In this document: piece after piece, positions 59,290 to 63,891 of the stretch | How positions within the stretch are numbered: position 1 is the stretch's first letter | Layout: each line of letters begins with the position of its first letter | Assembly (NCBI RefSeq): GCF_015732185.1 | Contig: NZ_WIQM01000016.1 | Location: forward strand, 465,001-529,000 | Direction: 5' to 3' | DNA: 64,000 nt | Origin: Pectinatus haikarae | GTDB lineage: Bacteria; Bacillota; Negativicutes; Selenomonadales; Selenomonadaceae | Position numbers and translations under genes: made by a program | Notes under the pieces: model-generated | Seen by the model: the letters and a program-made list of their open reading frames with translations, nothing else | What the model was told of the DNA's origin: nothing | Databases searched by the model: none

Positions 59290-59773
59290 CTATTTTTTTT
59301 TATCAGTTCCTAGCATTTGATCAAATACGTCAGAACAGCTTTTATCGCTGTTTTTTATTAAATGACTGTATATTACCTGTGTTATAACCGTATTGGTATG
59401 TCCTAAACGACTGGAAACTGTTTGCAGAGGTATATTATTTTTTATCCATATACTTGTAGCTATATGTCTCAACTCATGAGGATGTAATGCCTCGATGTTA
59501 TTTTTTTTGCAATACTTAGTCAACCAGTGATTAAAACTTCCCGGTTCCATTGGTTGTCCGTTATAGTTGCTGAAAATAAATATATCATTACTATCGGGGG
59601 AACCTTGCCACATACTGCCCAACTCTTTGGAAAGCAAAATAAGGTCCTGTCGATATTCTACTAACAGATTGCATAAGTATCTGGGCAGGCTTATCTTTCT
59701 CATGCTGGCGGCATTCTTAGTCGCCCTTACTATTTTAGTACCTTCGCCACGAATATATTGATTTGGATTGTCA
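59290..59773 (-). pseudogene. Tyrosine-recombinase integrase, C-terminal part only
   Basis: The catalytic half of a phage/island integrase. The open frame runs in phase from the IS3 edge: QYIRGEGTKIVRATKNAASM, RKISLP, then NIEALHPHELRHIATSIW (HxLRH, with Arg and His) and VSSRLGHTNTVITQVIYSHL (LGH and the nucleophile Tyr). The first catalytic Arg and the DNA-binding half are missing, removed at the IS3 junction. It faces tRNA-Lys, as integrases do beside an attachment site. It cannot be functional. Confidence 0.9.
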
Positions 59774-59781
59774 ACAGTAAA

Positions 59782-60613
59782 CTAAACAACTTTTTTAAAG
59801 GTATTCATTCGGTATGCAACTGGTGTTAAATAATCAAGAGAGGAATGAATTCTGTGGTTGTTGAACCAATTCACATAATCAGCAAATTCCAGTTTTAAAG
59901 TCTTGAGATCAGCAAATGTTTGATTCTTCACAAATTCTGTCTTGATAATTTTAAAAGTTGCCTCTGCCACAGCATTGTCGTATGGACAGCCCTTATGACT
60001 TAGAGATCTGGTTATATCGAATGCAGTTAGTTTTTCGTCTATCAACTTGTTCTTGAATTCGTTTCCACGATCTGTATGGAAGATATGAATATTTTTCAAG
60101 TTCCCATTTACGGTCATAAATGCTTCTTTTACAAGTCCTGCCGTTTTATGAACCAGCACTGTAAGCGATGATTTCACGATTAAAAAGATCCACAAGTACA
60201 CAGATGTAATTCCATTTCATTCCAACGCGGACATATGTCAGATCACTTACTACTACGTTTCGATATGGCTGTTCATTAAATTCGCGATTAACGATATTTG
60301 CGATTTTAGATTCATTGCATGTATCCTTTTGTGGATGGAACTGTGCAGTTGTATATGTTGATACAAGTCCTTCCTGCTTCATTATGCGACCGATACGACG
60401 ACGTGAAGCAATCAGATTAATCTTTAAAAGGTCCTTCTTTATTTTTCGGGTTCCATAGTTATTACGGCTTGCTTTAAATATATCAATTATGGCAGTGGTA
60501 AGTTCGGATTTATCCGGTTTTTACCTGGCTTCATAATAGTAAGTGCTTCTTGATATTTTTAGGACTTTACACATTGCTGATACAGAGTATTTGTGAACAT
60601 TCGCCTTTATCAC
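59782..60613 (-). pseudogene. IS3 transposase orfB, nonsense and frameshift
   Basis: The DDE transposase of the element. It begins, probably at a GTG, VIKANVHKYSVSAMCKVLKI and SRSTYYYEAR, then meets a TAA at 60531-60533 where the family continues with KPDKSEL. Further on RNVVVSDLTYVRVGMKWNYI (first Asp) and LVDLFNREIIAYSAG run into an extra T near 60150-60152. The phase then changes to HKTAGLVKEAF, IFHTDRGNEF (second Asp) and AVAEATFKIIKTEF (Glu). Two independent lesions make it inactive. Confidence 0.88.
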
Positions 60614-60615
60614 AT

Positions 60616-60912
60616 TTACTTTCGTCCTAAAATCAGCGCTGCTTGTTTTAAAATATCGTTCTCCATTTTAAGCTGCTGATTTTGCTTACGAAGCTTAATG
60701 AGTTCTTCTTGTTCTGGAGTTCGATTATCGTTTTCTTTGAATGGTCCTGAATTATCTGCTTGTGCAATCCATTTGTCAAGCAGGGAGTTGGCAATATCAT
60801 ATTCGCGAATAATATCACATTTGCGTTTGCCATTATGATATAAATCAACAAGTTGCTGTTTGAATTCTGGCGTATAAGTACGCCGCTGTCTAGGCTGCTT
60901 TTTTTCAGGCAT
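60616..60912 (-). CDS. IS3 transposase orfA
   Basis: A 98-residue HTH protein, MPEKKQPRQRRTYTPEFKQQ, VDLYHNGKRKCDIIREYDIA, ending in a leucine-zipper-like helix (EELIKLRKQNQQLKMENDIL). It is intact, with AAAGGA upstream of the ATG at 60912. In active IS3 elements it is joined to orfB by frameshifting; the orfB lesions mean it can only act as an inhibitor-like fragment, if expressed. Confidence 0.88.
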   Translation of the reverse strand: MPEKKQPRQRRTYTPEFKQQLVDLYHNGKRKCDIIREYDIANSLLDKWIAQADNSGPFKENDNRTPEQEELIKLRKQNQQLKMENDILKQAALILGRK

Positions 60913-60981
60913 AATAAAAATTCCTTTCTTCATATGAATTTATTGTATATGCCCTTAAAAAATCTGTCCAGTTTATTGTAG

Positions 60982-61230
60982 CCTATTCAGAGCTTTAAGG
61001 ACGATATTAGCAACAATCTTATCGAAGCTTTTAACAACCGTTTCAAGGCTTGGTATAAAACCAAACGTGGCTTTCATTCTTTTCACTCTGCTAATGCTAC
61101 TATTTCTGTTTTTGTCTTCTTTTTCAACTTCATGCGCCCTCATACTGGTCTTAATCATTTAACTCCTGCTCAAGTTGCCGGAGCTAACTATAATCCCAAT
61201 ATGAAAAACTTGTTTTCTTTAGCAAGTTGA
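60982..61230 (+). pseudogene. IS6-like transposase, C-terminal fragment
   Basis: The last 80 codons of a transposase closely related to the intact copy at 62361-63401: QSFKDDISNNLIEAFNNRFK, AWYKTKRGFHSFHSANATIS, PHTGLNHLTPAQVAGANY. The right end of that element can be followed to about 61292 (TTAACAGAGCCGATTA, matching the end of the intact copy). The 5' part is lost at the IS3 edge. The adjoining 61293-61465 gap holds only a small stem (GGTGTATAT/ATATACACACC) before the RadC chimera. Confidence 0.88.
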
Positions 61231-61465
61231 TAAAATTTAGTGCTTTTCTACAGAAACATTAGCTATCTTTTCATTTTTACTTAACAGAGCCGATTATTAT
61301 ATACTATTCATTGTTTTTTTTACAGATAAAGTACAATTTTATTTGGCTGTTATGTCCTGTCTGTCCAAGAATTTTATGGTGTATATCGTACTTAAAAGTG
61401 TTATATACACACCTTTTTTTGACCGGACATGCCGGACATAAAGCAGGAAGTATTGAGATTTCTCC

Positions 61466-62236
61466 TTAACCGGTACTTTCTTTTCGCTGCTTCATACTGA
61501 GTGAACCATATCTGCCGATGATTATATGATCCAGCAGAGGAATACCAATTATTTTGCCAACAACGGTCAGTCTTTTTGTGACGGCCTTATCTTCTTCACT
61601 GGGTGCGCTGTCACCTGACGGATGATTATGGGCAAGAGCAATATAAACATCTCGTTTTACAATATGCCCATCACAACGAACATGGTAATGAATGGCATCC
61701 ATAAAAACAACGGCATATACCTCTGCTAATGGTCTTTCCTGCCATTCTTTAACTAAGGGCATTATCTTGTCTGTTATACGACTGATAGTGCTGTCAGATA
61801 TTTCCAGGCCATATAAATTTTGCATATGCGATTCTATATCACTGGTAGTCATTCCTTTGGCATACATAGAAATAATTTTTTCTTCCATATCCTGAGTGAC
61901 AGTGTTCTGATATTTCTTTACAATCTGTGGTTCATATTCGCCATTACGATCTCGTGGAACAGCAAGATTCATATCTCCATAACTCGTATGCATTGTTTTA
62001 TTGGAATGTCCATTTCTGGAATTGCCAGTTTCTTTATTTTTATAGTCATATTTACTGTAGCCAAGAGATTCATCCAATTCACCATCAAGAGCACCTTCCA
62101 ATAAAACAGACATCATATCCCTCATGACATTTTTAACATCTGCACCATCACGAACATTGGTATTAGTATCCTTTAAATAATTTTTCATCATTTCCCGCAT
62201 TGCTGCTTTTTGGGTACTTTCATTTTTCCTGCTCAT
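61466..62236 (-). CDS. Chimera: IS256 transposase N-terminus fused in frame to RadC JAMM domain
   Basis: A 256-residue open frame. Residues 1 to about 199 are an IS256 (mutator) transposase: [80 protein letters not shown] (first catalytic Asp). At [10 protein letters not shown] the sequence becomes the C-terminal RadC domain: [20 protein letters not shown] with the JAMM His-x-His and Asp, then [20 protein letters not shown]. The rest of the transposase (second Asp, Glu) is absent. GGAGG precedes the ATG at 62236. No stop interrupts the junction. Confidence 0.88.
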
Positions 62237-62262
62237 AAATAAAACCTCCAAACTGATTTTAT

Positions 62263-63452
62263 CGTATTGTAAAGTTAAATGAAAGTTGAGGACTCGTCAG
62301 CCCTTCTGGTACAATAGTTTTATCACAAACACTGTACCTCCCGAAAGGAGACGAGTCCTCATGACAAAATCATATCAGATTTGCTGTCCAAAATGCAACA
62401 ACCATCAAAACTTTTATCGTTATGGCAAAGATAAAGATGCAAACCAAAAATATCTTTGCCGTGTATGCGGGCATCAATTTGTACCATATGCCAATACAAC
62501 CGGCAAATCAGGAAGGCCACGCATACGTTCTTACCCAATTTGCCCTATCTGCGGGAAGGCCATGTTTCTTCATCATGAACACAAATATTATTCAAACTAC
62601 CAATGTGGTGACAAGAAATGCGGTCATTCCCTTTTTGTCCCAAAACAAGCTGCTATTACAGCACCTTCTATGTCGAAATTGTCAGGAAAAACCAATTTCA
62701 AGCGAATGCGTTATCCTATGCATGTTATTCTGACAGCATTGTCAATGTTTTATTTAGGCAAGAATTCTTTCCGCAATATTGCTCTTATTATGCGTACGGT
62801 CATGAATATTCAGCTTTCTCACACCACCATCAGCAACTGGTGTACGAAATTTGCCCCTTTGTTTCACAACATTGCACTTGAATTGATACCAACGCTCAAT
62901 TTCGACTCCGATGAATGGCACGCGGACGAAACCGTGGTGAAAATCCGTGGCATGAAATATTATCTTTGGTTAATTGTGGACAGCGAAACACGTTTTGTCC
63001 TCGGCTTTCATCTTTCCAAACACCGGGATAGTCCTCAGGCTTTTTCCTTGCTTAATTCCGTTAAGCACCTTGGCAAACCCAGAGCCATTGTAACCGACCG
63101 TTACAGTGCCTACAAAGTTCCTGTAAAAGCAGTGCTGAACATCAAACATATCCGTGTCCACAGCTTCAGTGACGATATCACCAACAACCTGATCGAATGC
63201 TTTAACAAGCAGTTCAAAGCATGGTATAAAACCAAACAGGGATTTTCTTCTTTCAATTCCGCCAACAACCCTATCGCCGTTTTTCTCTTTTTTTACAATT
63301 TTGTCCGGCCTCATTCCGCTCTTAACAGTTTGACTCCGGCACAAGTTGCAGGGCTCAATCTTTCTGCCAGAAGTAAACACAAGCTTTTGTTCGTTGCTTG
63401 AAGTATTTGGCTGTTTCTGTTTGTTAATCTTTCATGTTTACTTTACAAAGCC
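62263..63452 (+). mobile_element. Complete IS6-like insertion sequence with 8-bp target duplication
   Basis: A 1190-bp element flanked by GATTTTAT on both sides (62255-62262 and 63453-63460), the 8-bp duplication typical of IS6 insertions. The ends match as inverted repeats: CGTATTGTAAAGTTAA and GGCTTTGTAAAGTAAA. It is inserted in the 5' flank of the IS256/RadC chimera. Intact transposase and clean duplication suggest a recent insertion. Confidence 0.88.
62361..63401 (+). CDS. IS6/IS240-type DDE transposase with zinc-finger N-terminus
   Basis: A 346-residue transposase. The N-terminal part has paired zinc-finger-like knuckles (CCPKCNNHQNFYRYG, CRVCGHQF, CPICGK, CGDKKCGHSLF), longer than the usual IS26-type enzyme. 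An HTH region follows, then the DDE core: DSDEWHADETVVKIRGMKYY (first Asp), AIVTDRYSAY (second Asp) and SDDITNNLIECFNKQFKAWY (Glu). HSALNSLTPAQVAG closes it. AAAGGAG precedes the ATG at 62361; the frame from 62286 is longer but starts in the element's leader. Confidence 0.92.
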   Translation: MTKSYQICCPKCNNHQNFYRYGKDKDANQKYLCRVCGHQFVPYANTTGKSGRPRIRSYPICPICGKAMFLHHEHKYYSNYQCGDKKCGHSLFVPKQAAITAPSMSKLSGKTNFKRMRYPMHVILTALSMFYLGKNSFRNIALIMRTVMNIQLSHTTISNWCTKFAPLFHNIALELIPTLNFDSDEWHADETVVKIRGMKYYLWLIVDSETRFVLGFHLSKHRDSPQAFSLLNSVKHLGKPRAIVTDRYSAYKVPVKAVLNIKHIRVHSFSDDITNNLIECFNKQFKAWYKTKQGFSSFNSANNPIAVFLFFYNFVRPHSALNSLTPAQVAGLNLSARSKHKLLFVA

Positions 63453-63460
63453 GATTTTAT

Positions 63461-63593
63461 ATTACATCAGCTTGAAGGTTTACACAATCTATGAAGAAGT
63501 CCCAGAGATTTTTCACACACCCCCAAAACACCAAACTCTATATGAATTAAGGCTTCTTAAAATAATTAATATTATAAAAACTATAGGGTACAC
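63461..63593. other. Displaced IS256 flank and spacer
   Basis: When the IS6-like element and one duplication are removed, this sequence joins the 5' flank of the IS256 chimera: on the minus strand a GGGACTTCTTCATAGATTGTG stretch by eye near 63490-63510, plausible as IS256 end and promoter region. The ORF on the plus strand here is not gene-like. Confidence 0.4.
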
Positions 63594-63760
63594 ACTCTTA
63601 ATCAACCATTCTGGATTCTTATTTTCGGTGGATCACCAATAAAAAAGGCATCTCAAATCCGAGAAGCCTTTTTTATTGCCCTGTATTTTATTTTTGTACC
63701 TTATCAAGTTCTCAACGATCGATTAAAGCCGTTCCGTTTTGATAAAAATAAGGCATTTAT
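63594..63760 (+). repeat. Decayed second copy of tRNA-Lys 3' end, terminator and flank
   Basis: ACTCTTAATCA (63594-63604), then GGTGGATCACCA ending at 63638, match the tRNA-Lys anticodon loop to 3' end with the T-arm mutated. ATCCGAGAAGCCTTTTTT follows as after the real tRNA. TTTTTGTACCTTATCA and CCGTTTTGATAAAAATAA then parallel the sequence between the tRNA terminator and the integrase stop. It is a degenerate direct repeat of 59094-59255, the mark of an old attachment site. Confidence 0.8.
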
Positions 63761-63891
63761 AATTCTTTTTGCGTTCTTAAAAATACGAAGCGAAAATTCA
63801 TCCAAATTATCCTAAATATGGCAATTATCACATATTTCTCAGCAGTTAAGCAATTATGCCAGTGTTTTTTGTTATATTTAAATATAAAAAT

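Follow-up and report, generated by a model that had tools for sequence, protein, structure and literature searches.

Chimeric pseudogenes form by illegitimate recombination in IS-rich regions. The reading frame described here lies in a 64,000-nucleotide stretch of Pectinatus haikarae DNA (hereafter the window), part of a 3.11-Mb draft genome in 17 contigs. Like those pseudogenes, it has a short microhomology junction, both of its parents are present and IS remnants surround it, whereas it differs from them in that it happens to remain in frame. Two protein families meet in it. The first is the IS256/Mutator transposase family (PF00872), whose relative ISCth4 (PDB 6xg8) carries its dimerisation, NDB and HTH domains within residues 1-165 and has D175, D241 and E348 as its DDE residues (PMC7780238); in IS256 itself, transposase residues 1-130 are enough for end binding (PMC7780238). 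The second comprises short RadC-like JAB-domain proteins (PF04002), with a relative in PDB 2qlc. The features of the locus are as follows.

61466..62236, minus strand: fusion ORF, 256 codons plus stop, starting at the ATG at 62236
61633..62262, minus strand: 5' portion of an IS256-family element, reaching from 26 bp ahead of the ATG as far as codon 201
61292..61635, minus strand: 3' part of a RadC-like gene with 174 bp of downstream DNA
61633..61635, minus strand: junction, a 3-bp overlap (TTG on the coding strand) common to both parents
62263..63452, plus strand: complete 1190-bp IS with a DDE_Tnp_IS240-type transposase (Pfam; full-length copies with the same ends)
63453..63503, minus strand: the 51 bp at the left end of the same IS256 copy, a 100% match to the intact copies (L002/L003)
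60989..61291, plus strand: 3'-end fragment of another IS, 99.0% identical over 303 bp to a copy on contig C4 (locus L031)

The initial annotation had described a frame passing from a transposase into RadC without a stop, and this description is borne out: the frame is uninterrupted from the ATG to the stop at 61466, an alternative TTG start at 62251 would add five codons, and the product carries two Pfam domains. Residues 1-201 are IS256/Mutator transposase (Transposase_mut, PF00872, on residues 29-202, 2e-52) and residues 202-256 are the end of a RadC JAB domain (PF04002 on residues 198-251, 5e-19, covering profile positions 66-119 of 121 only). The good ribosome site that had also been pointed out is present as a GGAGG ahead of the ATG and is the native one of IS256. 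A structure prediction for the whole fusion, based on an alignment of 15 sequences, had low confidence (mean pLDDT 53.5, pTM 0.32) and is uninformative about folding.

Both parents are found in the same genome. By BLAST, window positions 61633-62262 match the intact IS256 copies at C6:320880 and C14:114345 (99.4% identity across 630 bp), which encode 417 residues and are identical to each other across 1415 bp, and positions 61292-61635 match C11:6369-6712 (97.1% identity across 344 bp), where the RadC donor is a stand-alone RadC-like ORF of 116 residues (these own-genome comparisons covered selected loci plus a genome search). The RadC-side homology runs 174 bp past the fusion stop into non-coding DNA. 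On either side of the TTG overlap the two parents are unrelated, and this 3-bp overlap, read from the alignments, is what illegitimate recombination at a microhomology leaves behind. Relative to its IS256 parent the fusion has only four substitutions, two synonymous and two changing an amino acid (A196D and D71G); relative to the RadC donor it has four changed codons, two synonymous and two conservative (K to R and I to M).

The transposase half is incomplete. It aligns to residues 14-201 of ISCth4, and both this alignment and the PF00872 match place the N-terminal dimerisation, NDB and HTH region within the fusion. When the DDE positions are assigned by analogy to D175/D241/E348 of ISCth4 (PMC7780238), the triad is incomplete: the junction falls between D180, the first catalytic aspartate, which is kept, and D246 and E353 of the intact parent, which are lost. 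The fusion thus shares the DNA-binding and dimerisation part of a family member; the C-terminal half that carries D246, E353 and the helical insertion domain has been replaced. Nor does the gene stand between intact terminal repeats, since the left end has been split off and the right part of the IS256 copy is absent from the window.

The RadC half is likewise partial. It consists of the last 55 residues of the donor, and the native RadC end that had been recognised from the sequence is indeed retained. The accompanying statement that the JAMM set is kept holds in part: the HxH...S...D metal cluster (HNHPSGD...S..D) is present, but residue Glu46 of the donor (in PREVF), which we take to be the JAMM catalytic glutamate upstream of HxH, is gone together with about the first half of the JAB domain. 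Because the glutamate and this first half are missing, metalloprotease-like activity would not be expected of the fusion.

The surroundings of the fusion consist of mobile-element debris, and the region from 59.3 to 63.5 kb is an IS graveyard. The complete 1190-bp IS interrupts the 5' end of the IS256 remnant; it lies 26 bp ahead of the fusion ATG and separates the fusion frame from the IS256 left end. It is one of four full-length copies in the genome (the other three at 99% identity and with the same ends), and it is flanked by an 8-bp target duplication, GATTTTAT here, with CAGCCTAA and GAAATTTA at two other copies; it is complete and was probably active recently. The same IS also gives a sub-threshold Zn-ribbon match (Pfam). 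On the other side, the IS fragment at 60989-61291 abuts the RadC segment exactly where the homology to C11 stops, and the IS256 remnant in the window is without its 3' half. Other IS256 copies of this genome, on C4 and C15, are also internally deleted or interrupted. Beside the fusion, at 59290-60933, lie broken pieces of an IS3-type transposase and a C-terminal fragment of a phage-type integrase (tyrosine recombinase).

Second examples of this domain order were sought broadly. Among 5 genus, 189 family, 380 class and 398 phylum genomes (overlapping sets, about 760 distinct), both halves were covered only at the window's own locus; for the family and the phylum the query was a short peptide across the junction, so that fusions with other junctions, or lower in the lists, could escape. 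The other genome matches listed end near residue 207 or earlier, or are RadC alone. In a scan of public genome contigs with the full protein, none of the best 80 loci held a fusion, and all ended at residues 171-205. No fusion appeared among the matches listed from a scan of viral contigs, nor among those listed from tblastn against plasmids and phages, where the longest plasmid match listed covered residues 3-216 and came from a Cetobacterium sequence annotated as an IS256 transposase. Neither genome nor viral contigs matched a degenerate DNA pattern of the exact junction peptide; these scans possibly do not include the genome studied here. A literature search on RadC with JAMM and transposase returned no paper on such fusions. 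The comparison that the initial annotation had proposed, a search for proteins with the same domain order, therefore yielded no second example in the phylum genomes or among the contig, viral, phage and plasmid matches listed.

Since both parents occur in the same genome, the junction lies at a 3-bp microhomology, the searches brought up no second example and nested IS debris flanks the frame, we regard it as very likely that the fusion is a chimeric pseudogene, the chance product of an illegitimate deletion or an equivalent end joining. The early suggestion of a chance deletion product is in this way strongly supported. An IS256-family copy would once have lain upstream of a copy of the short RadC-like gene in the same orientation, and an illegitimate deletion or end joining would have run from transposase codon 201 to the middle of the RadC domain at the 3-bp microhomology, the frame being retained by a chance of roughly one in three. 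The 1190-bp IS would also have landed 26 bp before the ATG, with its 8-bp duplication, either before or after the fusion. That the frame is still open after the fusion counts against a pseudogene. The keeping of the frame at the junction, however, is no evidence of selection, because by our computation, if the two parent genes are joined wherever they share 3 bp or more, 38% of the products are in frame anyway, and the few substitutions on both sides are also expected of a young event without selection. The fusion is a true sequence and most likely a recent pseudogene; both parents, the junction, the target duplication and the missing catalytic residues are directly observed, and we infer the ancestral arrangement, the deletion itself and the probable lack of function. 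If a protein is made at all, it would at most bind IS256 ends passively through its N-terminal domains.

Other explanations have to be set against the pseudogene. The truncated transposase could bind IS256 ends and dampen the intact copies as a dominant-negative regulator, with the RadC tail passive or only stabilising. In its favour, the fusion still has the counterparts of the dimerisation, N-terminal DNA-binding and HTH domains of ISCth4 (residues 1-165), the stretch 1-130 of the IS256 transposase is by itself able to bind the ends (PMC7780238), and the same genome holds intact, near-identical IS256 copies. Such a regulator is nonetheless improbable: the fusion is known from one genome only, another IS cuts it off from the IS256 left end, promoter-like patterns for it are no commoner than expected by chance, and it carries the A196D and D71G changes relative to its parent. 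A still less probable version is a new chimeric gene with a remodelled RadC tail, whose N-terminal part would bind the ends of IS256 and keep the intact copies repressed.

An artefact of assembly or binning, joining two unrelated sequences, might be suspected in a draft of 17 contigs when both parents are multi-copy or mobile sequences. We judge this very improbable, as the contig is 856 kb long and the join is far from its ends, substitutions set both sides apart from their parents and the 3 bp common at the join are too short for an assembler overlap. Hardly credible at all is a functional chimera directing a metalloprotease-like RadC domain to DNA, akin to the pairing suggested initially. 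The open frame, the native RadC C-terminus and the retained HxHPSGD speak for it; against it, the fusion lacks the JAMM glutamate and the first half of the JAB domain, the IS256 left end has been cut off and the searches described above brought up no second example.

As a pseudogene, the fusion is a clear example of IS-rich regions generating in-frame chimeric ORFs by chance, and it cautions against taking domain fusions found beside transposases as new architectures. Expression of the fusion together with an effect on IS256 activity would be needed to give it greater weight.

The locus may also bear traces of a more complex history. Insertion of IS256 inside the RadC gene was considered and is not supported, as the DNA from 63504 onward does not match the donor's 5' part. 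About 117 bp at 63759-63874 are 81% identical to C11:7293-7409, which adjoins the donor RadC on C11; its order with respect to the RadC segment is wrong, which suggests more than one rearrangement. The donor ORF (L017 6188-6538, on C11) is a stand-alone JAB domain of 116 amino acids, and an in-frame TGA just upstream of its ATG indicates that the donor itself is possibly 5'-truncated. Its neighbours are an HTH regulator and a zeta-toxin-like P-loop ORF.
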